From contig JBFJWU010000026.1 in the NCBI GenBank assembly GCA_041623475.1, positions 1 to 16,932 on the forward strand: 16,932 nucleotides of DNA, in the 5' to 3' direction. Under the pieces are notes generated by a model. That model saw only the letters and a program-made list of their open reading frames with translations. It was not told the origin of the DNA and did no database searches. The position numbers and the translations under genes were made by a program. This stretch comes from JBFJWU01 sp041623475 [NCBI: bacterium] (GTDB lineage: Bacteria > J088). Positions 1,616 through 15,915 of the stretch are shown piece by piece; the first letter of the stretch is position 1, and each line of letters opens with the position of its first letter.

Positions 1616-1723
1616 CTGAACTGCCTGCAATTGCGGGTGCGAGGACATTGGGCGAGCCAGACCGGGCCGCTCGATCCGGGAAAACGAATATATTTTTGAC
1701 CCAAACTGTTGGAGGGGCGAGCC

Positions 1724-3391
1724 ATGTCAGGTTCAGGAAAACTGCTGCTGGAATCGGTATACGAATGGGAACAGAACGAACCCAACCGGATGTACCTGAC
1801 CCAGCCCATTGGCAATGGTGAAGTTGTCAATTACACGTGGGGCCAGGCGATGGACGAAGTCCGCCGGATGGCAGCCCACCTGAAGTCCCTGGACCTGGAG
1901 CCCGGTTCCAAGATCGCGCTGCTGTCCAAGAACTGCGCCCACTTTATCCTGGCGGACCTGGCGATCTTTATGGCGGGCCACGTCACCGTCGCGCTGTACC
2001 CGACCCTGAACGCCGAAACCGTCGGCTACATCCTCGACCATTCAGACTCCAAGCTGCTGTTTGTCGGCAAACTGGACGACTGGGATTCCATGAAGAGCGG
2101 CGTCCCCGGTGATATGCCGTGCATCGCCTTTCCCCTGGCACCCAAAACCGACTACACGACGTGGGACGACATCATCGCCAAAACAGAGCCACTGCAGGGC
2201 AACCCGACCCGCGCTGCAGACGAGCTGGCCATTATTGTTTATACGTCCGGCTCAACGGGGCAGCCCAAAGGCGTAATGCACAATTTTGCTGCAATGTCGG
2301 TCGCCGGCCGCGGTATGGTCCGCGAACTGAAGATCGGCAAGAACGAGCGCCAGCTGAGCTACCTGCCTCTGGCACACGTATTCGAGCGATTGATCGTCGA
2401 AACGGCGTCCTTTTATTCCGGCGCCCACATTTTCTTTGCCGAGTCCCTGGACACGTTCCTGCAGGACCTGCAACGCTGCAAGCCGACCCTGTTTGTCTCG
2501 GTACCTCGGCTGTGGCTCAAGTTCCAGTTGGGTGTTTTCCAGAAGATGCCGCCGGAGAAACTGGACCGCCTGCTGAGGATCCCGATCATTTCCGGAATCG
2601 TCAAGAAAAAGGTCCTGTCCGGACTGGGGCTGGAACACGTCCGCCTTGCCGGCAGTGGCAGCGCCCCGATCCCGGCTGACCTGATCGAATGGTACCGCAA
2701 ACTGGGCCTGGTCCTGCTCGAAGGCTATGGCATGAGCGAGGACTTTGCCTATTCCCATCTGTCGACGCCGGAAAAGAACAAGCCGGGATATGTTGGCGTG
2801 CCATTTGACGATGTTGATGTCCGCATCAGCGACGAGGGCGAAATCCAGATCAAGAGCCCCGGCAACATGATGGGCTACTACAAAGAGCCCGAAATGACCG
2901 CCGAATGCTATACCGAAGACGGCTATTTCAAGACCGGCGATCGCGGTGAACGACTGCCCAATGGGCTGCTCAAGATCACCGGCCGGGTCAAGGAACTGTT
3001 CAAGACCTCCAAAGGAAAATACGTCGCACCGGCCCCGATCGAAAACATCATCAACGCCGACAGCAGCGTCGAAACCAGCTGTGTATCCGGTTCCGGACGG
3101 CCGCAGCCGTACGCGCTGGTGATGCTCAGCGAAGACCTGCGGGCCAGCCAGGATGACCCGGCAACCCGCGAAAAGGTCACCGCTGCCCTGGAAGCGCTGC
3201 TGAAAAAGGTCAACGGCGAAGTCGAAGGCTACGAAGCGCTGCAGTTCCTGGCGGTTGTCCGCGACGAATGGCAGATCGAAAACGGTTTTCTGACGCCGAC
3301 GATGAAGATCAAACGCCCCGTCATCGAGGACCACTACGACTCGAAGCTGGACGAATGGTACGATTCCGGCCAGAAAATTGTCTGGGAATAG
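1724..3391 (+). CDS. Long-chain fatty acid-CoA ligase (AMP-forming)
   Basis: This gene encodes 555 residues of the ANL (acyl/aryl-CoA synthetase) superfamily, long-chain type. It adenylates a fatty acid with ATP and transfers the acyl group to CoA, feeding beta-oxidation or lipid synthesis. Visible motifs are the phosphate loop YTSGSTGQPKG (residues 173-183), EGYGMSE (333-339), GYFKTGDRG with the ribose-binding Asp (about 406), the hinge region GRVKELFKTSKGKYVAP, and the C-terminal lysine segment LTPTMKIKR. The absence of a signal peptide suggests a cytosolic or membrane-peripheral enzyme. The ATG at 1724 is chosen because GGAGGGG at 1711-1717 sits 6 nt upstream; a TTG at 1709 would place the start on top of that site. 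Upstream CRP-type sites suggest cAMP-linked control, a familiar theme for fatty acid catabolism. Chain-length preference cannot be read from sequence. Confidence 0.93.
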   Translation: MSGSGKLLLESVYEWEQNEPNRMYLTQPIGNGEVVNYTWGQAMDEVRRMAAHLKSLDLEPGSKIALLSKNCAHFILADLAIFMAGHVTVALYPTLNAETVGYILDHSDSKLLFVGKLDDWDSMKSGVPGDMPCIAFPLAPKTDYTTWDDIIAKTEPLQGNPTRAADELAIIVYTSGSTGQPKGVMHNFAAMSVAGRGMVRELKIGKNERQLSYLPLAHVFERLIVETASFYSGAHIFFAESLDTFLQDLQRCKPTLFVSVPRLWLKFQLGVFQKMPPEKLDRLLRIPIISGIVKKKVLSGLGLEHVRLAGSGSAPIPADLIEWYRKLGLVLLEGYGMSEDFAYSHLSTPEKNKPGYVGVPFDDVDVRISDEGEIQIKSPGNMMGYYKEPEMTAECYTEDGYFKTGDRGERLPNGLLKITGRVKELFKTSKGKYVAPAPIENIINADSSVETSCVSGSGRPQPYALVMLSEDLRASQDDPATREKVTAALEALLKKVNGEVEGYEALQFLAVVRDEWQIENGFLTPTMKIKRPVIEDHYDSKLDEWYDSGQKIVWE

Positions 3392-3644: not shown

Positions 3645-4154
3645 GTGCGTCTGATGCCTGACCCTGCCGACCACCAGCCGTTTGATGCCGCCTATCGGCA
3701 GGGCCGATTGTTTGCCGCCGATGTCCAGGCGTCGGCCCTGATCAGCGCACCTGCAAACCGCGTCTGGTCAATCCTGACAGACCTCGATCGATATTCCCAA
3801 TGGAATCCGTTTACACCAACCGTCGAGTCCGATCTGCAGCCCGGATCAGCGGCGGTGCTGCACGTCCGTATGCCCGGCCGACCACCAATGGTACGAACCG
3901 AATGGGTGAATTCAATGATTCCCGGCCAGCGTCTGTGTTGGGGCATGGTCATGGGACATCGCTGGCTTCTGGTGGCCAACCGCGAACAGCGTGTCGAACC
4001 GATCAGCGACGGATCCTGCCGCTACGTCACCGTTGACCGCTTCAGCGGCCTGCTGACGCCACTGATGCTGCTGCTGTTCCGCAGACCAATGCAGCGCGGT
4101 TTCCAGGCCGCGGCCGACGGCCTGAAGCACGCCGCCGAGGCGACTGCCGAATGA
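3645..4154 (+). CDS. SRPBCC (START/polyketide cyclase-like) family protein
   Basis: This gene encodes 169 residues from GTG 3645; ATG 3654 is an equally possible start, and neither has a strong Shine-Dalgarno. Residues about 25-165 fit the SRPBCC helix-grip fold. A first strand leads into the SAPANRVWSILTDLDRYSQW element with WNPF, which is typical of this family. Further strands follow, then a long C-terminal helix (MQRGFQAAADGLKHA). The fold encloses a hydrophobic pocket used for lipids, sterols or polyketide-like ligands, either as a carrier or as a small cyclase/dehydratase. The stop overlaps the next start (ATGA), placing it first in a translationally coupled four-gene set with a DUF1214-type protein, a sulfotransferase and an SDR enzyme. 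A ligand-binding or ring-modifying role on the cassette's substrate is an inference. Confidence 0.75.
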   Translation: MRLMPDPADHQPFDAAYRQGRLFAADVQASALISAPANRVWSILTDLDRYSQWNPFTPTVESDLQPGSAAVLHVRMPGRPPMVRTEWVNSMIPGQRLCWGMVMGHRWLLVANREQRVEPISDGSCRYVTVDRFSGLLTPLMLLLFRRPMQRGFQAAADGLKHAAEATAE

Positions 4155-5344
4155 AAAAGGTGTTTTTTCTAATCCTGGGCGCATTTCGCCGCGCCTCGCT
4201 GTGGTGGCAACGGCTCCGGGGCAGGACCCCTGATACCATTGCCGAACAACGGATCGTCAGCGGCCAGGCATGGGACGAGTTCTGCGACGCCCTCAAAGCC
4301 GCCGGGGCCACCCTGCAGTTTCCCGGCGCCCCGCGCGATCCCTTTACCCAGGCCGAGGGCTATCGGTACCTGAGCCGCCTGACGCGGGCTGGCCTGGAAG
4401 CCTTTGTCGAATATGCCGATCCCCAGGCACCGGTCCTGCGCCGGATGGTCCACGAAACCGCAAAAATGGGCGCCGATAACCCGGACAACTACTACCAGAA
4501 CGCCACCATCGACGGGCAGTTGACCTACCGGATTCGCGGCAACCGGAGTACCGTCAACTACCTGGGGTTCGGCACCCAGGCAGGACAGTACGGCCAGGAT
4601 GGCGGCATGCGAACGACCGGATACGTCGAGGCATCAGAACTGGACATTGAACCGGACGGATCTTTTGAGCTGATCGTCAGCGCCACCAGGCAGCCCGGCA
4701 ACTGGCTGCCTATGGACCCGGAATCAACCCTGTTGATTGTCCGCCAGACGTTCCTCGACCGCGACACCGAACAGATTGCCGACCTGGTCATCGAGCGTGC
4801 CGACGGCCCGACGATTCCGGTACCGCTGACACCCGCTGCACTGGACCAGGGACTGCAACAGACATCATTGCTGGTCGCGGGCGCGTCCATGTTATTTGCC
4901 AAATGGGCACGGGATTTCCAGAAACATCCTAACCAGCTGCCGCGCTTTGACCAGGCCGTATCGGATGCCGCCGGTGGCGACCCCAACATCGCCTACTACC
5001 ACAGTTACTGGTCGCTGGAACCGGACCAGGCGCTGGTCATTGATGCCCGGCCACCCGACTGTGAGCACTGGAATTTCCAGTTGAACAACCACTGGATGGA
5101 GTCCCTCGATTACCGCTACCACCAGGTCCACCTGAACAAGCATAGCGCCCGGCCCAACCCCGACGGCACGGTCACCCTGGTCGTCGCCCACAAGGACCCC
5201 GGCCATCCCAACTGGATCGAAACGATCGGCCACGAATGCGGCACCATGTGCTTCCGCTGGATTCGGGCAACCGAGCACCCGCAGCCGCAAACCCGTGTGG
5301 TGCCGTTCGCCGAGCTGGACAACATTCTCGCTGGCACCGCGTGA
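4151..5344 (+). CDS. DUF1214-type protein
   Basis: This gene encodes 397 residues; the ATG overlaps the SRPBCC stop by 4 nt. The first 14 residues (MKKVFFLILGAFRR) are short and hydrophobic, but too weak to call a signal peptide. The middle has a conserved-looking PFTQAEGYRYLSRLTRAGLE segment (about 63-85). The C-terminal third carries YYHSYWSLEPDQALVIDARP, then WNFQLNNHWMESLDYRYHQ and a GTMCFRW element near the end. I associate these with the DUF1214/DUF1254-related beta-sandwich proteins, which have no established reaction. The assignment is from pattern memory and is moderate. The gene sits between the SRPBCC protein and the sulfotransferase, with overlaps on both sides, implying a fixed-stoichiometry role in the same process. 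Conserved His/Trp/Asp residues in the C-terminal block could mark an active or binding site; this is not known. Confidence 0.65.
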   Translation: MKKVFFLILGAFRRASLWWQRLRGRTPDTIAEQRIVSGQAWDEFCDALKAAGATLQFPGAPRDPFTQAEGYRYLSRLTRAGLEAFVEYADPQAPVLRRMVHETAKMGADNPDNYYQNATIDGQLTYRIRGNRSTVNYLGFGTQAGQYGQDGGMRTTGYVEASELDIEPDGSFELIVSATRQPGNWLPMDPESTLLIVRQTFLDRDTEQIADLVIERADGPTIPVPLTPAALDQGLQQTSLLVAGASMLFAKWARDFQKHPNQLPRFDQAVSDAAGGDPNIAYYHSYWSLEPDQALVIDARPPDCEHWNFQLNNHWMESLDYRYHQVHLNKHSARPNPDGTVTLVVAHKDPGHPNWIETIGHECGTMCFRWIRATEHPQPQTRVVPFAELDNILAGTA

Positions 5345-6597
5345 GCAACATCGTCACCGGCAATCGTTACGCCGACCCGCCCCGCCCGATGCTGGTGCGG
5401 CTGATTAACCTGTTGGGGACCGTGCTGCCGGTTGGCCCGTTTGCACGGCGGCTGAACGTCGACAACCTGGTCCGTAACGCCCGGCGGCGGTCTGGACTGA
5501 CCGACTTCGGCGACGAATGGTTCACAGAGCCGCTGGCGGTCCTGGTCGATGCCATCAATGCCAATGCCAGGTTGACCCCGATGGGACGACTGATCCAGCG
5601 GACCCGCCTGGTTGGTGCGCTGGAAAACCGCCTGCGCGCGCGACAACTGTTTCGGCAGAATCCGGAAATCCTTGACCAGGAGCTGGGCAAGGTCATCGTA
5701 ATCGCCGGCCTGCAGCGAACCGGAACGACCATGCTGCACCGGCTGCTGGCATCGGACCCGGCGGCCCGGTCTTTGTTGTCGTGGGAAGCGCTGAACCCGG
5801 CACCCTTCCCCGGCGACCAGGACAACCGCCACCGTCATGCCGAAGCCCGCAAGGCCCAGAAAGCCCTGGCGTGGCTGGCACCGCAGTTCTTTGCAATCCA
5901 CCCCGTTGAATGGGATGCGCCCGAAGAGGATGTCCTGCTGCTGGACCTGAGCTTTATGAGCCAGGCACCAGAAGCAACAATGACCGTTCCGGCATATGCA
6001 ACCTGGCTGGAATCCGCCGATCATCGGCCGGCCTACGAATACCTGCGAGACCTGATGAAGCTTCTGCAGTGGCAGCGACCGGGCACGCACTGGGTCCTCA
6101 AAACCCCCCACCACATGGAATACCTGGACACACTGCTGGATGTCTTTCCCGATGCAACGATCATCCAGACCCATCGCGATCCGCGCCGGACCATGGGCAG
6201 TTTCTGCAGCATGGTGGCCCACGGCCAGGGTGTGTTCAGTAACCATGTCGACCCGGTAGCAGTCGGCCGCCACTGGACCCGCAAGGTCCGCATCATGCTG
6301 GAAAACACGATCGCCGCCCGCCAGGCCCGCGCCGATCGCCACGTCGTCGACGTGCTGTACGATGACCTGATGACCGACCCGATCACCCAGATCCAACGTA
6401 TTTATGACACCGCTGGAATTGAACTGGCCGACGCAGCCCTGCAGTCAATGAACGCCGCCCGCCAGGCCAACCGCCAGCACAAATACGGACGCCACGTCTA
6501 CGACCTGGCAGATTTCGGGCTGTCAATTGAACAGATCGACCGGGATTTCGACTTTTACCGCCAACGACACGGAATACCGGTCGAGGTTCAGTCATGA
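5341..6597 (+). CDS. Sulfotransferase family protein (PAPS-dependent type)
   Basis: This gene encodes 418 residues. The GTG at 5341 overlaps the previous stop (GTGA); an in-frame ATG at 5236 would run deep into the upstream gene and is not used. The PAPS 5'-phosphosulfate loop is seen as GLQRTGTT at 123-130. A WVLKTPHH element follows at 251-258, and the 3'-phosphate-binding segment THRDPRRTMGSFCSM starts near 277 with the usual Arg and Ser. Together these match the sulfotransferase_3 (PF13469) type, which moves a sulfuryl group from PAPS onto a hydroxyl or amine acceptor. No signal or membrane helix is evident, so it is probably cytosolic. Acceptors for this subfamily are mostly unknown; lipids, sterols and other hydrophobic alcohols are plausible given the SRPBCC and SDR neighbours. 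Its stop overlaps the SDR start (ATGA). Confidence 0.88.
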   Translation: MSNIVTGNRYADPPRPMLVRLINLLGTVLPVGPFARRLNVDNLVRNARRRSGLTDFGDEWFTEPLAVLVDAINANARLTPMGRLIQRTRLVGALENRLRARQLFRQNPEILDQELGKVIVIAGLQRTGTTMLHRLLASDPAARSLLSWEALNPAPFPGDQDNRHRHAEARKAQKALAWLAPQFFAIHPVEWDAPEEDVLLLDLSFMSQAPEATMTVPAYATWLESADHRPAYEYLRDLMKLLQWQRPGTHWVLKTPHHMEYLDTLLDVFPDATIIQTHRDPRRTMGSFCSMVAHGQGVFSNHVDPVAVGRHWTRKVRIMLENTIAARQARADRHVVDVLYDDLMTDPITQIQRIYDTAGIELADAALQSMNAARQANRQHKYGRHVYDLADFGLSIEQIDRDFDFYRQRHGIPVEVQS

Positions 6598-7616
6598 ACC
6601 AGTCGCCTGCCACCGCTGGCACCGGTGCTTCGGGCGTCGGTCATGACAGCGTTCCCAGGGCGGTGTTGACTGCAATCATGGACCTGTTCAGTCGCGAGGG
6701 CCGGATTGACCCGCTGCCGGATGATTGTCGCCTGGATGGACAGACGGCGCTGGTGACCGGTGCCAATACCGGCCTGGGCAAGGCGGTCGCCACTGACCTT
6801 GCCCGCCGTGGCGCCACCGTTATTATGGCCTGCCGCAGTGGCATCCCCGATGCGGGCGCGGATGTCCGGCACCAGTCCGGCAGCAACCGGGTCACGATGG
6901 AACACGTCGACCTGGCCAGCATCGAGTCGATCCGTGACCTGTGCCGGCGCCTGGCCGACTCCGGGACCCGGCTCGACACTCTGGTCCTGAACGCTGGCCT
7001 GATGCCCCGCACCGCGCGCCGGTCTGCCCAGGGATTCGAGGTCATGTTTGCCGTCCACTATCTGGCCAACCGGCTGCTGGTCGAAAATCTGACTGAATCC
7101 GGTGTCGTTGACATATCCGTTGGCACTTCGCGCCGTCCCCGGGTCATTTTCGTATCATCCGAGGCCCACAAGTCCTCGGCCCCGATCGATTTCGCCAATT
7201 TCGGCGCATTCCACGATTATGGCCTGACCGACGGCATGAAATGGTATGCCCACAGCAAATTGCACATGAGCACCTACGCGACCGAGCTCGCCCGCCGGTT
7301 TGCGGCCGACCCGGATAGCGATTGCGGCGTTTACCATTTGTGCCCGGGTCCAATCAACAGCAGCATCGCCCGCGAAACGCCGATCTGGCTCAAGCCAATC
7401 CTGATTCCGCTGATGGCGCTGTTCTTTCGCTCGCCGGAAAAAGCTGCCGAACCGGTCATCTGGCTGGCCGGCCATCCCGACCTGGACGCTGAAACCGGTG
7501 TCTACCTGCACATGATGCGCCGCAAGGATCCGTCGCCATTGGCTACTGACCCCGAAAACGGGCAGCAACTGTGGACGGTAGGTGCGGACCAGTTGTCACG
7601 CCTGACCAGTACGTAG
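6594..7616 (+). CDS. Short-chain dehydrogenase/reductase (retinol dehydrogenase-like)
   Basis: This gene encodes 340 residues. The ATG overlaps the sulfotransferase stop by 4 nt. About 47 residues precede the Rossmann fold. The cofactor loop TGANTGLG is at 55-62, ACRS (79-82) lies at the position that often favours NADP through the Arg, and NAG is at 133-135. The catalytic set is SS at about 188-189 and YAHSK with Tyr218/Lys222, followed by a CPGPINS segment. The order and the C-terminal extension resemble retinol-dehydrogenase/WWOX-like SDRs, which oxidise or reduce hydrophobic alcohols and ketones. It is the last of the four overlapping genes. An alcohol/ketone step next to a sulfotransferase suggests formation or removal of the hydroxyl that is sulfated, which is an inference. 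The exact substrate is unknown. Confidence 0.9.
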   Translation: MNQSPATAGTGASGVGHDSVPRAVLTAIMDLFSREGRIDPLPDDCRLDGQTALVTGANTGLGKAVATDLARRGATVIMACRSGIPDAGADVRHQSGSNRVTMEHVDLASIESIRDLCRRLADSGTRLDTLVLNAGLMPRTARRSAQGFEVMFAVHYLANRLLVENLTESGVVDISVGTSRRPRVIFVSSEAHKSSAPIDFANFGAFHDYGLTDGMKWYAHSKLHMSTYATELARRFAADPDSDCGVYHLCPGPINSSIARETPIWLKPILIPLMALFFRSPEKAAEPVIWLAGHPDLDAETGVYLHMMRRKDPSPLATDPENGQQLWTVGADQLSRLTST

Positions 7617-7631
7617 CACCGGTCCTGATCG

Positions 7632-8699
7632 ATGACGCCGTGGCGCTTTTTCTGGGGGCAGTTCCACAAACGAACCCAGTTCCAATGGTTCCTGGATTCG
7701 ATCTGGAAGCAAATGGACTGGGTTGGACATCCACCGCAACCGCTTCAGCCAGGCCAGATTGCCTGCATTACGACGATCAGGGACGAGCGCGGGTTCCTCG
7801 ATCGTTTCGTCGAACACCATCTGGACATTGGCATCGATCGGATTATTCTTATCGATAACGGGTCGACCGACGGGTCGCTGGAAGCCGCTGTAGCGCTGGA
7901 CCGGGTTTCGGTCCTGCAGACTGGCCTTGATTATCAGACCTGGAAGGCCTTTTTGCCGCTTCCCGTTATCCAGCGTATCGCACCCGACAACTGGGTCGTG
8001 ACGCTCGATATGGACGAGTTGTTACGGCTGCCGGCCGACGAACCTGATCTTAAGCTGCCTGAGTTTACAGATTATTTGCAACAATCCGGGGCTTCGGCTG
8101 TCGTCGCCCATATGCTGGACATGTTTCGTCCCGGTCCAATTGACGACCAATCGCCCGAGCGAATTCAGAACGGTAATTGGCATTGGACTCCCGAGGGCCT
8201 GGTCAGCACAAGTATCGCTGACGAGATCCGCTGGGGACGCAATCGATACCTGAATCCCGAAATCAGGTTTCTTCGCGGGGGCGCCCGAAAATTACAGTTC
8301 GGCACGTCGCCGTTGTTAAGCAAAGTCCCCCTGTTCAGAAGTGGAACCGGTGTGCAACGGCTCGGCATACATCGCGTCCGCTGTGCTGTCTATGCCAATG
8401 TCAACTGCATCCTTCAGCACTTCCTGATCAACTCCAATTTGTACCGGAAAGTACGCCGCGAGTCGCGTCAAGTTGGCTGGCAGGCCGGCGAATTTTACGG
8501 TTCTGTCCAGTTTCCATCGGGCGAACAACAAATTGTCGTTGATATCCCCGGAAGTCGCCCCTTCACGAACGTGGCCGATCTGGAATCGACTGAATTCCTG
8601 AGGGTAAGCGACGACTATCGACGCTGGCTGACGACACGTCGGACAGGCAAAAAAAAGCGCCCGCCGGATAAATCCGCGGGCGCCTTTGGAATCGACTAA
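7632..8699 (+). CDS. Family 2-type glycosyltransferase
   Basis: This gene encodes 355 residues; the ATG lies 15 nt after the SDR stop, with no clear Shine-Dalgarno. The GT-A nucleotide-sugar fold begins near residue 42 (IACITTIRDERGFLDRFVEHH), continues with IDNGSTDGS (74-82), and has the metal-binding DMDE at 126-129. The short DxD-containing form resembles the Glyco_tranf_2_4/GT92-like group often found in surface polysaccharide loci. Donor and acceptor cannot be predicted. The last 20 or so residues are very basic (TRRTGKKKRPPDK) and are encoded by a terminator-like hairpin for the opposing gene. Third positions look more AT-tolerant than in the preceding cassette (several TTA, TTG and AAT codons), so it may have a separate origin. 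It may be read through from the upstream operon. Confidence 0.85.
   Translation: MTPWRFFWGQFHKRTQFQWFLDSIWKQMDWVGHPPQPLQPGQIACITTIRDERGFLDRFVEHHLDIGIDRIILIDNGSTDGSLEAAVALDRVSVLQTGLDYQTWKAFLPLPVIQRIAPDNWVVTLDMDELLRLPADEPDLKLPEFTDYLQQSGASAVVAHMLDMFRPGPIDDQSPERIQNGNWHWTPEGLVSTSIADEIRWGRNRYLNPEIRFLRGGARKLQFGTSPLLSKVPLFRSGTGVQRLGIHRVRCAVYANVNCILQHFLINSNLYRKVRRESRQVGWQAGEFYGSVQFPSGEQQIVVDIPGSRPFTNVADLESTEFLRVSDDYRRWLTTRRTGKKKRPPDKSAGAFGID
8649..8683 (-). terminator. Rho-independent terminator for the DUF427 gene, inside the glycosyltransferase 3' end
   Basis: Read on the minus strand, an 8-bp GC stem (GCGCCCGC at 8657-8664 pairing with GCGGGCGC at 8676-8683, 11-nt loop) is followed by eight U residues (A8 at 8649-8656 on the plus strand). 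It lies 29 nt beyond the minus-strand stop at 8712. It is a textbook terminator for that gene, yet it lies wholly within the coding frame of the convergent glycosyltransferase. Confidence 0.8.
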
Positions 8700-8711
8700 C
8701 GTGTCGACTGG

Positions 8712-8990
8712 CTACTCTTCGATCTCGACCTTGCGAAACGCAACATAATCTTTGATCGGTTTCGCGTGCTTGCGGGGCCGTGGGTAACACCACGCCGCGT
8801 CCATATTGCGATTGCCGTCGACCGTTACCGTAAAGTAGTGTGCCTCGCCTTTGCGGGGGCATCGCGTCCTGGTCGCACTGGCTTCCAGAACGCCGTCACG
8901 GATCGACTTGGTCGGGAAATAGTGTGCCCCGTCCAGCTCGATAACCTTGCTGCTTTCAGCGAGTACTTCGCCTTTCCAGACTACTTTCAT
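8712..8990 (-). CDS. DUF427 domain protein
   Basis: This gene encodes 92 residues, essentially one DUF427 (PF04248) domain. The start is the ATG at 8990, because AGAGGA (plus-strand 9000-9005) lies 9 nt upstream and the protein then opens with MKVVWKGEVLAES, the usual beginning of this family. An upstream start at 9023 would read through that site. Family hallmarks visible are YFPTKSI, the TRTRCPRKGEAHYFTV stretch, and AAWCYPRP near the C-terminus. These small cytosolic proteins are widespread and have no firm biochemical role. The gene appears monocistronic: it has its own ribosome site, about 300 nt of upstream spacer, and a strong terminator downstream. Confidence 0.88.
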   Translation of the reverse strand: MKVVWKGEVLAESSKVIELDGAHYFPTKSIRDGVLEASATRTRCPRKGEAHYFTVTVDGNRNMDAAWCYPRPRKHAKPIKDYVAFRKVEIEE

Positions 8991-9299: not shown

Positions 9300-9962
9300 T
9301 TACGGGTTTGCCTGCTGGCTGTCCCGGACCGCGTTCAGCAGTTTTTCCAGATCAACGCGAATTTCGTCGAATTGTCCACCGGCAAGGCGTTCACTGTCAA
9401 AAATACTGCCGCCAAATGCAATCGCTGCCGCCCCGGCCGCCAGCCAGTCGACTGCATTCTCTGCAGTAACACCGCCGACCGCCATCAGCGGTACGTCATC
9501 CAGGGGCCCCAGCAGTTGCCGGAGGTAGGCGGGGCCAAATGCGGCGGCCGGAAACACTTTGATCATCGCCGCCCCGGAATGCCAGGCGGCGTCGACTTCA
9601 GTCGGTGTCAGGGCCCCCGCGATGACCGGCACCTGGCTGTTGGCCGCGGCCTCCAGGACCACAGGTCTCGATGTCGGGGTTACCAGGTAGGCAGCTCCGG
9701 ACGCGACGGCAATCCGGACATCGGCAACGGTCCGAACGGTTCCGGCCCCCACCCGGATCCTGTCGCCAGCCAGCTCGCGCAGCCGCCCGATCAGGTCCGG
9801 AGCATTCGGGGTATTCAGCGTAATCTCCAGCGCCGACAGGCCTGCCTGGATGCAGACGTCGACCACCGGCTCCAGTTGCCCGGCCGTTACGCCGCGCAGG
9901 ATGCCCAGGACCGGCGGGCCCGCGCCAAAGATGGAGTTGTTTGAACGAGCTGCGGAACTCAA
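9300..9962 (-). CDS. KDPG/KHG-type aldolase (class I)
   Basis: This gene encodes 220 residues of the 2-keto-3-deoxy-6-phosphogluconate/4-hydroxy-2-oxoglutarate aldolase family, which cleaves or forms 2-keto-3-deoxy acids through a Schiff base with pyruvate. The opening GILRGV, the EITLNT segment with general base Glu46, VGAGTV (71-76) and MIKVFPAA with Schiff-base Lys135 are all present. The length is close to E. coli Eda. The start is a TTG overlapping the upstream stop (TTGA). No ATG or GTG lies between it and the first conserved strand, so coupling to the upstream aldolase gene is likely. The partner is another pyruvate-type aldolase rather than a 6-phosphogluconate dehydratase (edd). A role outside the classical Entner-Doudoroff pathway is therefore possible. 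I leave the symbol empty because the substrate is not settled. Confidence 0.88.
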   Translation of the reverse strand: MSSAARSNNSIFGAGPPVLGILRGVTAGQLEPVVDVCIQAGLSALEITLNTPNAPDLIGRLRELAGDRIRVGAGTVRTVADVRIAVASGAAYLVTPTSRPVVLEAAANSQVPVIAGALTPTEVDAAWHSGAAMIKVFPAAAFGPAYLRQLLGPLDDVPLMAVGGVTAENAVDWLAAGAAAIAFGGSIFDSERLAGGQFDEIRVDLEKLLNAVRDSQQANP

Positions 9963-10909
9963 TCCAGCGTTGCGTCGCCGGTCACGTCGTCGTAAAACGC
10001 AACCAGTTCATCCTTCTTATCCGAATCCATCGCCGCCATTGCAGCGCGAGGATGCTGGTTCATAATCCCGGTCACCATGTAAGGAATGAAATAACCCCAG
10101 TCGATCTTTTCCCGCCAGGGCAGTATTTGTTCTTCGATGGCGCTCAGGATCGGCCGGACATCAAACTTTGGATTCTTCAGGAACGACACCAGCAGTTCCA
10201 GCGGGCAGTTTCCGGCACCGCGTCCCATCCCATACAGGGTGCCATCCAGGAAATTGGCCCCGGCAATGATTGCGGCAATCGTATTGGCAAATGCCAGTTG
10301 CTGGTTGTTGTGGGCGTGGATCCCGATCGTCTTGCCCTGCAGCCGTTCCATATAGCGCTTGACCAGGTAGTCGACATCCTCTGAATAAAAGGCGCCAAAG
10401 CTGTCAACCACATAGATCGTCGGGACGCGGCTTTTGGCCAGGTCATCCAGTGCCTCGTCCAGGTCGCGGCCACCGACCGTCGACACGGCCATCAGGTTGA
10501 TCGTCGTCTCGTAACCGCGGTCCATCACCAGATGCGCCAGCTCCACTGCCTTGTCAACCTGATGGACGTAACAGGCGACACGAATCATATCCAGACTGCT
10601 GTCCGCCGCATCCGGGATATCGTCGTAGTCGATCCGGCCGATATCAGCCATCGCACACAGCTTCAGGTCGTTTTCCGTATCGCCGATGATGCGCTTCAGG
10701 TCCGGCTCGGCGCAGAACCGCCACGGACCGACTTCATTGCGGTCGAACGCCGACTCCGAACTCAGGTAACCGATTTCCATATAATCGACGCCCGCAGCGG
10801 CCAGTGAATGATAAACCTTGCGGACGAATTCGTCCGAGAATTGCCACTTGTTCATCAGCCCGCCATCGCGAACTGTGCAATCCATGACCTTGATTTCTGG
10901 TCGATACAT
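9959..10909 (-). CDS. HMGL-like (DRE-TIM) aldolase, 4-hydroxy-2-oxovalerate aldolase-related
   Basis: This gene encodes 316 residues. It belongs to the metal-dependent DRE-TIM lyase/aldolase barrel family (HMGL-like). It has MDCTVRDGG near the N-terminus (Asp10, Arg14, Asp15), the metal-binding HAHNN at 198-202, and a GMGRGAGN glycine-rich segment at 227-234 that matches the aldolase branch. Members such as 4-hydroxy-2-oxovalerate aldolase cleave 4-hydroxy-2-oxo acids to pyruvate and an aldehyde. The substrate here is unknown, and no acylating aldehyde dehydrogenase partner is adjacent. The ATG at 10909 is chosen because the conserved MYRPEIKVMDCT opening starts there and GAGG lies about 11 nt upstream; a longer frame from 10999 would add 30 unlikely residues. 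The stop overlaps the KDPG-type aldolase start, making a two-aldolase operon. Confidence 0.85.
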   Translation of the reverse strand: MYRPEIKVMDCTVRDGGLMNKWQFSDEFVRKVYHSLAAAGVDYMEIGYLSSESAFDRNEVGPWRFCAEPDLKRIIGDTENDLKLCAMADIGRIDYDDIPDAADSSLDMIRVACYVHQVDKAVELAHLVMDRGYETTINLMAVSTVGGRDLDEALDDLAKSRVPTIYVVDSFGAFYSEDVDYLVKRYMERLQGKTIGIHAHNNQQLAFANTIAAIIAGANFLDGTLYGMGRGAGNCPLELLVSFLKNPKFDVRPILSAIEEQILPWREKIDWGYFIPYMVTGIMNQHPRAAMAAMDSDKKDELVAFYDDVTGDATLD

Positions 10910-10970
10910 GATGGTCTGTTCCTCGCTTACCGGGCACGACCGCCATGTCGGCGGCCCGCACAAACCAATC

Positions 10971-10999
10971 AGGGTATCAAAGACCGAAAAAAAGTCCAA
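10971..10999 (-). promoter_or_regulatory. Weak candidate promoter of the two-aldolase operon
   Basis: Read on the minus strand, TTGGAC (10994-10999) is followed after 17 nt by TACCCT (10971-10976) with a TGA just before it, resembling an extended -10. The match to consensus is partial. The leader to the ATG at 10909 would be about 55 nt. Confidence 0.25.
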
Positions 11000-15105: not shown

Positions 15106-15915
15106 ATGGCTGAATTGGACTGGGGACGCCTGGGCTACTGGCTGGGCTTCACATTGGTTGTTGGACTGGGCACGTTCCATCTTGTGGCCGGTTACTACCA
15201 CCTGCGCTATTACGTGCTGCGCAAGGACGACCCGAAAAGCTGGAAATGCCAGCCGGACCGGTTCCTGTCACCCAAACTGCAACGGCGCGCCGCACTGTCC
15301 AGCACGACCAACCTGGCCTATGGCGGCGCGTTGACGGCGCTGCTGTTGTTCGCCACCGAGCAGGGACTGATCTCGCTGCCGGTCTATTTCGACGTCGCGG
15401 ACTACGGATGGCCATACCTGGTTTTCTCAACCGTCCTGCTGTTTGTGCTTGAGGACGCGATCGCCTTTTACGTCCATTGGGCGATGCATCACGAACTGCT
15501 GTACAAACGGTTTCATCGGTCGCACCACACCTACGTCGCGACGACACCGTACGCGACAATTGCGATCCATCCGGTCGTGTTCATCGCCCTGCAGTTCGCG
15601 TCGGCCATCCCGATCCTGCTGATTCCGTTTCACGTCTATTCGATCGCCGCTGTGTTTATCTACATTTTTGTCTTTAACATCATTGACCACTCGGGGGTCA
15701 ACCTGGAGTCGCGACTCCCCTGGCAGGCATCCTCCAACTACCACGACGATCATCACGCGCTGTTCCATGTCAATTTCGGGCAACACCTGACGATCTGGGA
15801 CAAACTGCACGGCACGCTGCGTCGCCGTGGCCAGACCTACGGACCGGCAATATTCGGCGGCCGCGGCAAATCGGCTGAACAGGATGCCCACCCCGGGCCG
15901 TTCTACGAGTATTGA
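15106..15915 (+). CDS. Fatty acid hydroxylase / sterol desaturase superfamily membrane protein
   Basis: This gene encodes 269 residues. The three histidine clusters of the superfamily are present: HWAMHH (124-129), HRSHH (137-141) and HDDHH (213-217). His195 in NIIDHSG is a further likely ligand. Together they hold a di-metal centre that uses O2 to hydroxylate or desaturate a lipid chain, sterol or carotenoid. Hydrophobic segments near 10-30, 70-88, 103-123 and 153-195 place it in the membrane with the clusters on the cytoplasmic side. AAGGA 11 nt before the ATG supports the start. The two palindromes upstream suggest repression by the divergent TetR protein. The next gene starts 24 nt after its stop and is also a membrane protein, so the two probably form an operon. 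The substrate is not predictable from sequence. Confidence 0.9.
   Translation: MAELDWGRLGYWLGFTLVVGLGTFHLVAGYYHLRYYVLRKDDPKSWKCQPDRFLSPKLQRRAALSSTTNLAYGGALTALLLFATEQGLISLPVYFDVADYGWPYLVFSTVLLFVLEDAIAFYVHWAMHHELLYKRFHRSHHTYVATTPYATIAIHPVVFIALQFASAIPILLIPFHVYSIAAVFIYIFVFNIIDHSGVNLESRLPWQASSNYHDDHHALFHVNFGQHLTIWDKLHGTLRRRGQTYGPAIFGGRGKSAEQDAHPGPFYEY

Follow-up and report, generated by a model that had tools for sequence, protein, structure and literature searches.

A recurrent gene cassette that pairs a DUF1214-type protein with a sulfotransferase: a candidate sulfation module for steroid-like alcohols

The cassette and its four proteins

Four genes on the forward strand of contig JBFJWU010000026.1 (assembly GCA_041623475.1, from the bacterium JBFJWU01 sp041623475) are packed so closely that each after the first begins within the end of the one before it. 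They encode (Table 1) an SRPBCC or polyketide-cyclase-like protein, a DUF1214-type protein (here D), a sulfotransferase (ST) of the type that uses 3′-phosphoadenosine 5′-phosphosulfate (PAPS), and a short-chain dehydrogenase (SDR), and the task that they may share is the subject considered here. The ‘window’ is the whole 16,932-nucleotide (nt) stretch in which they lie. All three junctions are 4-nt stop/start overlaps, ATGA at 4151, GTGA at 5341 and ATGA at 6594, and in this the open reading frame (ORF) coordinates and the overlap letters bear out the first-pass annotation, as the Pfam matches do for its four family calls. The start of ST is the GTG that overlaps the stop of D; the mechanical ORF of that frame starts further upstream.

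Table 1. Features of the window, the cassette genes first
Feature	Position	Strand	Length	Match or placement
SRPBCC / polyketide-cyclase-like protein	3645..4154	+	169 aa	Pfam PF10604 (Polyketide_cyc2), E 8.1e-15
D, DUF1214-type protein	4151..5344	+	397 aa	PF06742, E 2e-8, 35.1 bits (cut-off 25)
ST, PAPS-type sulfotransferase	5341..6597	+	418 aa	PF13469 (Sulfotransfer_3), E 3.7e-43, 148.7 bits (cut-off 27)
SDR, short-chain dehydrogenase	6594..7616	+	340 aa	PF00106 (adh_short), E 3.4e-16
Acyl-CoA synthetase (ORF)	1709-3391			upstream of cassette
Glycosyltransferase	7632-8699			15 nt downstream of cassette
KDPG/KHG aldolase-like	9300-9962	-		
4-hydroxy-2-oxovalerate aldolase-like	9959-10999	-		
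FA_hydroxylase-family	15106-15915	+		7.5 kb from cassette

ST matches PDB entries 2zq5 (E 4.7e-52) and 2z6v (E 1.6e-49), which we take to be mycobacterial sulfotransferases, and its GLQRTGTT and THRDPRRTMGS stretches, presumably the PAPS 5′ phosphosulfate loop and 3′ phosphate site, align to the same places in both. At least 97% of 72 aligned rows keep G123, R126, T129, T130, R279 and S287. Profile and PAPS stretches together place the protein, as far as its sequence can tell, in the PAPS-dependent sulfotransferase group (PF13469 / Stf). Classical SDRs are marked by nucleotide-binding glycines, an NAG motif and a Ser/Tyr/Lys set, and the window SDR holds TGANTGLG, NAG, S189 and Y218-x3-K222, and G56, G60, G62, N133, A134, S189, Y218 and K222 are retained by no fewer than 97% of 68 rows, the window among them. 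Its nearest relatives are PRK06197 / protochlorophyllide-reductase-like SDRs, and it scores below the NCBIfam cut-offs for both PRK06197 (121.4 of 268 bits) and PRK06196 (111.8 of 414 bits).

D matches PDB 6ans, an uncharacterized protein of Burkholderia cenocepacia, at E 1.5e-129 and 53-54% identity; 6ans is of the same D family as the window protein and is itself without an assigned function. The AlphaFold2 model of D (pLDDT 88) comprises two beta domains and a helix at the N-terminus that is predicted with moderate confidence, and matches the 6ans fold with Z 46. It also shares its fold with the solved proteins VPA0106 (Z 13.8, root-mean-square deviation (rmsd) 4.0, 253 aligned) and VPA0735 (Z 13.4, rmsd 4.7, 271 aligned), which we take to be DUF1254/DUF1214-type family members. 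Identification of D by fold as a sulfatase or a lyase was set aside, the only clear Foldseek/VIA-align matches being these three, followed at low Z by carbohydrate-binding and other beta proteins, a non-match that excludes nothing. The PF06742 model (E 0.001) misses D in 6 of 15 cassette genomes (G001, G003, G005, G010, G012 and G013), from which it follows that the D proteins of the cassettes form a divergent branch, one often overlooked by the Pfam model. Across 39 diverse rows D112, Y115, R198, N329, N354, R369 and other residues are invariant, and so many invariant polar positions would favor a catalyst over a scaffold, as a pointer and not as a demonstration.

Recurrence of the neighborhood across phyla

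How widespread is this arrangement? When a genome collection was scanned with four aligned D proteins, at least 556 confirmed relatives came out, the best 80 loci of which, picked by D alone, were kept. The window proteins were then matched by tblastn to the DNA up to 7 kb from each D, counting matches on the D strand with E no higher than 1e-4. ST lies near D in 77 of the 80 loci, SDR in 71 and an SRPBCC homologue in 28; among the 56 eligible loci, those having at least 1.5 kb before D and at least 4.5 kb after it, the corresponding numbers are 56, 54 and 24. Two of the three loci where ST is absent, L050 and L056, are on contigs that stop less than 200 nt from D, and the nine loci where SDR was not found include L028 and L059, which have enough flank. 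The gene orders in eligible loci are D-ST-SDR (24), D-ST-SDR-SRPBCC (20), SDR-D-ST (6), the SRPBCC-D-ST-SDR of the window (4) and D-ST (2), with SRPBCC elsewhere lying upstream of D or behind the SDR gene or genes and, in a subset of loci, a second SDR between SDR and SRPBCC. Junctions are tight in many of them: with the window omitted and start codons set by script, D and ST overlap or are separated by at most 20 nt in 54 of the 75 loci where both occur within 400 nt (a 4-nt overlap is possible in 22), and the same is true of ST and SDR in 44 of 60 (in 9 with a possible 4-nt overlap). Long frames in L107 and L108 were considered as natural D-ST fusions and rejected, for they look like an ST frame running upstream (by frame arithmetic for L107 only).

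Rare adjacency in other genomes was the outcome that, by the first-pass annotation's own account, would have refuted its reading, and the neighborhood analysis seeded on D that it proposed did not bear this out: ST and SDR lie together near D in 54 of the 56 eligible loci. Its view of the four genes as one unit holds for D, ST and SDR, with SRPBCC being an optional member. That the genes are neighbors by chance, or merely have a common promoter while serving unrelated tasks, is very improbable, since the same neighbors recur across phyla. For D, ST and SDR such a notion is contradicted by their joint occurrence in eligible loci, in ten phyla, and by their parallel divergence; SRPBCC, not found near D in 32 of the 56, may nonetheless be a neighbor of that sort. 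The parallel divergence is seen in the correlation of distance matrices, r being 0.91 for D-ST (71 loci), 0.86 for D-SDR (67) and 0.88 for ST-SDR (66), where the highest values among 999 permutations are 0.21, 0.30 and 0.21. This is as expected for joint inheritance, with common species history adding to the correlation.

The D tree has 80 rows (the window and 79 loci). Phyla are assigned for 75 of them, ten in all, and the tree implies 18 changes of phylum where 9 would be the minimum, a figure that binning errors in metagenome-assembled genomes (MAGs) may inflate. Closest to the window D in it is that of Gordonia rhizosphera (support 95), which says little about the host. L082, labelled an alphaproteobacterium, groups with Bacteroidales; its cassette and flanks are nearly alike to those of L084, the two bins bearing the labels Alphaproteobacteria and Bacteroidales, so one bin is probably mislabelled.

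PAPS genes, mycobacterium-like relatives and the steroid hydroxylase KshA

Genes that form PAPS (APS kinase, or CysD-CysN-CysC) adjoin the module in 10 of the 80 loci (L007, L018, L027, L033, L038, L040, L042, L045, L049 and L072, on the other strand in L018 and L072), that of L045 being a Pfam APS_kinase match; a CysQ-like match in L076 (32%, partial, other strand) was left out of the count. Their presence in the same neighborhoods strengthens a reading in terms of PAPS-dependent sulfation. Relatives on plasmids have PAPS genes by D/ST in three of six fetched: in a Novosphingobium plasmid (L001) ST and D are directly preceded by ORFs of the CysD, CysNC and CysQ kinds, a Paraburkholderia plasmid (L006) has the order D-ST-VOC-cysQ-cysD-cysN, and a Tsukamurella plasmid (L004) carries cysC and cysD beside D-SDR-ST. 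D adjoins ST in L001, in L006 and in a Sphingobium plasmid (L003) as it does in the window. Unlike the window, none of these four sets has a window-type SDR match beside D by tblastn, and the window SDR gives no match at E 1e-4 to the SDR that L004 has between its D and ST; SRPBCC occurs only in L001, 7 kb off, and it is a VOC protein that comes after ST in L006.

The pairing extends to D paralogues. Of 20 actinobacterial regions around them, hand-picked rather than random and eight of them belonging to a single genome, 19 contain ST; in 17 it shares the strand of D and is separated from it by no more than about one gene. CysD, CysN or CysQ occurs in four (L122, L123, L125 and, 4.7 kb off, L116). 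L109 and L110 hold four-gene D-ST-SDR-SRPBCC sets on one strand (D 44-48%, ST 42% and SRPBCC 32-35% identical to the window) with an SDR that matches the Tsukamurella type and not that of the window; in L109 an inositol-phosphatase-family gene, perhaps of the CysQ kind, directly precedes D. Mycobacterium-like genomes (G022, G110, G131, G157 and others) carry a strongly expanded set of D relatives, with up to 12 matches per genome, a count in which some matches are pieces of one protein and at most 12 candidates were scored, and several of the copies have an ST neighbor of their own. At 6812-8719 of the mycobacterium-like L118 there is a 635-amino acid D variant with a long N-terminal extension and no ST match in the 18 kb fetched.

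Two mycobacterium-like regions, L115 and L120, are of particular relevance as there a D-SDR-ST set lies near KshA, of the steroid 9-alpha-hydroxylase family (PF19298, E 9e-91 and 3e-88). L120 also has a PPE gene, an acetaldehyde dehydrogenase and a DmpG-type aldolase, presumably HsaG/HsaF-like, and an FAD-binding dehydrogenase that may be KstD-like. In both, a KstR-type box stops 10-11 nt short of the D start; the L115 box is perfect and that of L120 has a single mismatch. Scanning gives five such matches in each region where about 0.2 would be expected. The window D is 31% identical to the L120 D (E 7e-38) and the window ST 34% identical to its ST (E 4e-54), the latter matching 2zq5, which we take to be the tuberculosis protein STF1/Rv3529c, at E 1e-236. 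We take the L115 and L120 sets to stand, probably, in the place of Rv3531c-Rv3530c-Rv3529c, a link that would depend in part on 2zq5 being Rv3529c; L115 and L120 suggest that Rv3531c is a D protein, and through them the Rv genes would belong to the D and ST families. As seen in these two loci, that group has D and ST homologous to those of the window with an SDR in between; the window differs in gene order, in SDR subfamily and in having an SRPBCC gene alongside.

The first-pass annotation knew of no characterized pathway with this set of genes; what would be a related D-SDR-ST set without a known function already appears among the mycobacterial cholesterol genes in two reports (PMC6429209, PMC1995591). 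One of them reports positive binding for a KstR motif that lies between Rv3531c and Rv3532 (PMC1995591), and a third source lists Rv3530c and Rv3531c, like cyp125 and fadD19, as genes repressed in hypoxia and induced on reaeration (PMC2905415).

Do D and KshA also keep company at the level of whole genomes? Among 150 genomes in the order of the Gordonia genome G002, D is matched in 44 (down to distant paralogues, with 0.001 as the E limit) and KshA_C in 53; KshA is present in all 44 with D and in 9 of the 106 without, four of the nine being only weak matches. At least 15 of the 44 have a D match, usually a distant paralogue, no more than 6 kb away from KshA (15 of 17 genomes, picked by eye, that have both on one contig). 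In the class of the Pseudomonadales genome G001 (369 genomes; D matches at E up to 1e-20) D is found in 6, KshA in 5 and both in 4, that is KshA in 4/6 with D versus 1/363 without, or 3/5 versus 1/363 when the seed genome is removed. The general ring-hydroxylase family PF00848, serving as control, gives 32/44 versus 46/106 in the order and 5/6 versus 58/363 in the class: D genomes are richer in it too, far less sharply than in KshA.

A proposed sulfation module, its alternatives and its neighbors

The reading we prefer, with a probability of roughly 0.57, is that the four genes work as one module, which sulfates a hydrophobic alcohol at the expense of PAPS; the alcohol is most likely a steroid or steroid-like polycyclic one, and the setting usually degradative. 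It is based on the conserved neighborhood, the parallel divergence of the genes, the linkage to genes for PAPS synthesis or recycling and the co-occurrence with KshA, from which the substrate and the D reaction are inferred. SDR, to judge from its family, would interconvert a ketone and a secondary alcohol at a ring or side-chain oxygen of the substrate. ST, given its family, its conserved PAPS stretches and the linked PAPS genes, would move sulfate from PAPS onto the hydroxyl. D, its near-constant partner, would then bind the acceptor or act on the sulfate ester, and SRPBCC, where present, may carry or shape the hydrophobic ligand. Modification and sulfation of a hydrophobic alcohol or ketone was already the shared task proposed in the first-pass annotation, and the recurring neighborhood and PAPS genes lend it support, the likely substrate class now being steroids or steroid-like compounds.

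Several points weigh against this. None of the four proteins has a known activity, and D might serve solely as a binding subunit. In L115 and L120, which represent the Rv3531c-Rv3530c-Rv3529c group here, the set follows a KstR-type box and has KshA close by; in the window there are zero such boxes, and no KshA or other steroid-ring enzyme among its scanned proteins. The mycobacterium-like set uses a different SDR, that of Tsukamurella and not that of the window being the best match in L115, L120, L122, L123 and L125. In L071, 3.3 kb after D is without ST or SDR by tblastn. Distant paralogues were counted in the G002 order, where 9 of the 44 D genomes have a D match of at least 43% identity over most of D, and the Fisher values for the D-KshA association overstate independence because the genomes are related. 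Among 31 cassette genomes hand-chosen from the 80 loci and searched for KshA_C, 24 have a match. In 8 of these it is at E <1e-50; in the other 16 E ranges from 8e-18 to 2e-29, and the proteins matched there may be Rieske oxygenases of another kind. The remaining 7 genomes, including all three Bacteroidota tested, have none.

With strong matches in only 8 of those 24, the steroid reading loses a little of its weight to an alternative in which the module makes a sulfated end product (a sterol, hopanoid, carotenoid, quinone or other lipid) for use by the cell. Characterized bacterial sulfotransferase products are mostly end products. A cassette spread patchily over ten phyla, many of its genomes being MAGs, with D in only 6 of the 369 genomes of the G001 class, would suit such a role, as would the cassette genomes where KshA is lacking (7/31) or matched only weakly (16/31), the CYP102-like P450 downstream in three Ketobacter-like loci, with P450 homologues in L029 and L037, and the FA_hydroxylase-family gene upstream in four Acidimicrobiia loci. 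The co-occurrence of KshA with D, the KstR-type box that precedes the mycobacterium-like sets close to KshA, and the multiple D matches per genome in the G002 order, more like the expansion of a catabolic family, argue otherwise, and we consider an end product unlikely while granting that it is the alternative least readily dismissed.

A special case of the preferred degradative sulfation module deserves airing, doubtful as it is: ST sulfates a hydroxyl in order to activate it, and D eliminates or displaces the sulfate, for net dehydration or C-O cleavage of the steroid-like compound. The many invariant polar residues of D are as for a catalyst, D and ST stay paired through paralogue expansion, and a sulfated end product makes little sense in a degradative setting. 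The median identity of D to the window (63%) also exceeds those of ST (51%) and SDR (48%; SRPBCC 46%, from 11 usable rows), a comparison in which the choice of loci by D similarity favors D. Set against it are the lack of homology of D to any known lyase or sulfatase, its clear fold neighbors being uncharacterized, and the weakness of the match of ST to 4gox, a chain of a polyketide synthase (E 0.013). CurM, with its sulfation-driven decarboxylation, offers a comparable logic, and sulfate as a leaving group would be common to both systems if activation were correct. A CurM-type module has a thioesterase and a carrier protein, neither of which is among the window's four genes by Pfam, and with the 4gox match as the only homology CurM-like chemistry was retained as an analogy alone. 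More doubtful still is the broader proposition that sulfation is an activating step in the breakdown of steroids or polycyclic isoprenoids in many phyla, D eliminating or displacing the sulfate, in a module that has moved between phyla as a unit and multiplied in mycobacterium-like genomes.

Improbable, in our estimation, is a role in overflow or detoxification, whereby SDR reduces steroid intermediates, ST sulfates them for export or storage and D, with no catalysis of its own, helps ST by binding the acceptor. Sulfation is a common phase-II step in animals, ST and SDR alone would suffice for it, and the low-Z resemblance of D to carbohydrate-binding and other beta proteins is compatible with a binding function. 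However, no transporter is constant among the neighbor clusters examined, the most frequent, a nucleoside transporter, being in 8 loci.

With its near-constant ST partner, the PAPS genes and the co-occurrence with KshA, the DUF1214 family acquires a concrete candidate role. If sulfation does belong to steroid degradation then accepted pathways miss a step, and should activation prove true, D would be the first DUF1214-family enzyme with a reaction, one copy of the module being in the cholesterol regulon without a known step. In 5.39 million open papers, with most subscription journals outside, no link between DUF1214 and a sulfotransferase was found and DUF1214 itself is barely named; nor did this literature yield a report of a gene cluster of sulfotransferase, short-chain dehydrogenase and SRPBCC. 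Among the matches listed for DUF1254 or sulfatase none dealt with DUF1254, and those listed for sulfate as leaving group held nothing relevant.

As to the surroundings of the cassette, the acyl-CoA synthetase and glycosyltransferase genes that the first reading had remarked on are present where it put them, and are rejected as conserved members of the module: no glycosyltransferase homologue was matched by tblastn in the 80 loci, and the acyl-CoA synthetase homologues there all lie over 6 kb away from D, on the opposite strand. Further along the window the two aldolase-like genes have a 4-nt overlap between them, both scoring below the NCBIfam cut-offs. Distant homologues of the window's FA_hydroxylase-family gene (22-25% identity) lie just upstream of D in the Acidimicrobiia loci L038, L042, L045 and L049. 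In the Ketobacter-like loci L012, L020 and L030 the CYP102-like P450 downstream of the cassette (about 16400-18300) is 86% identical between loci, and in L012 a SnoaL-like gene is also downstream.

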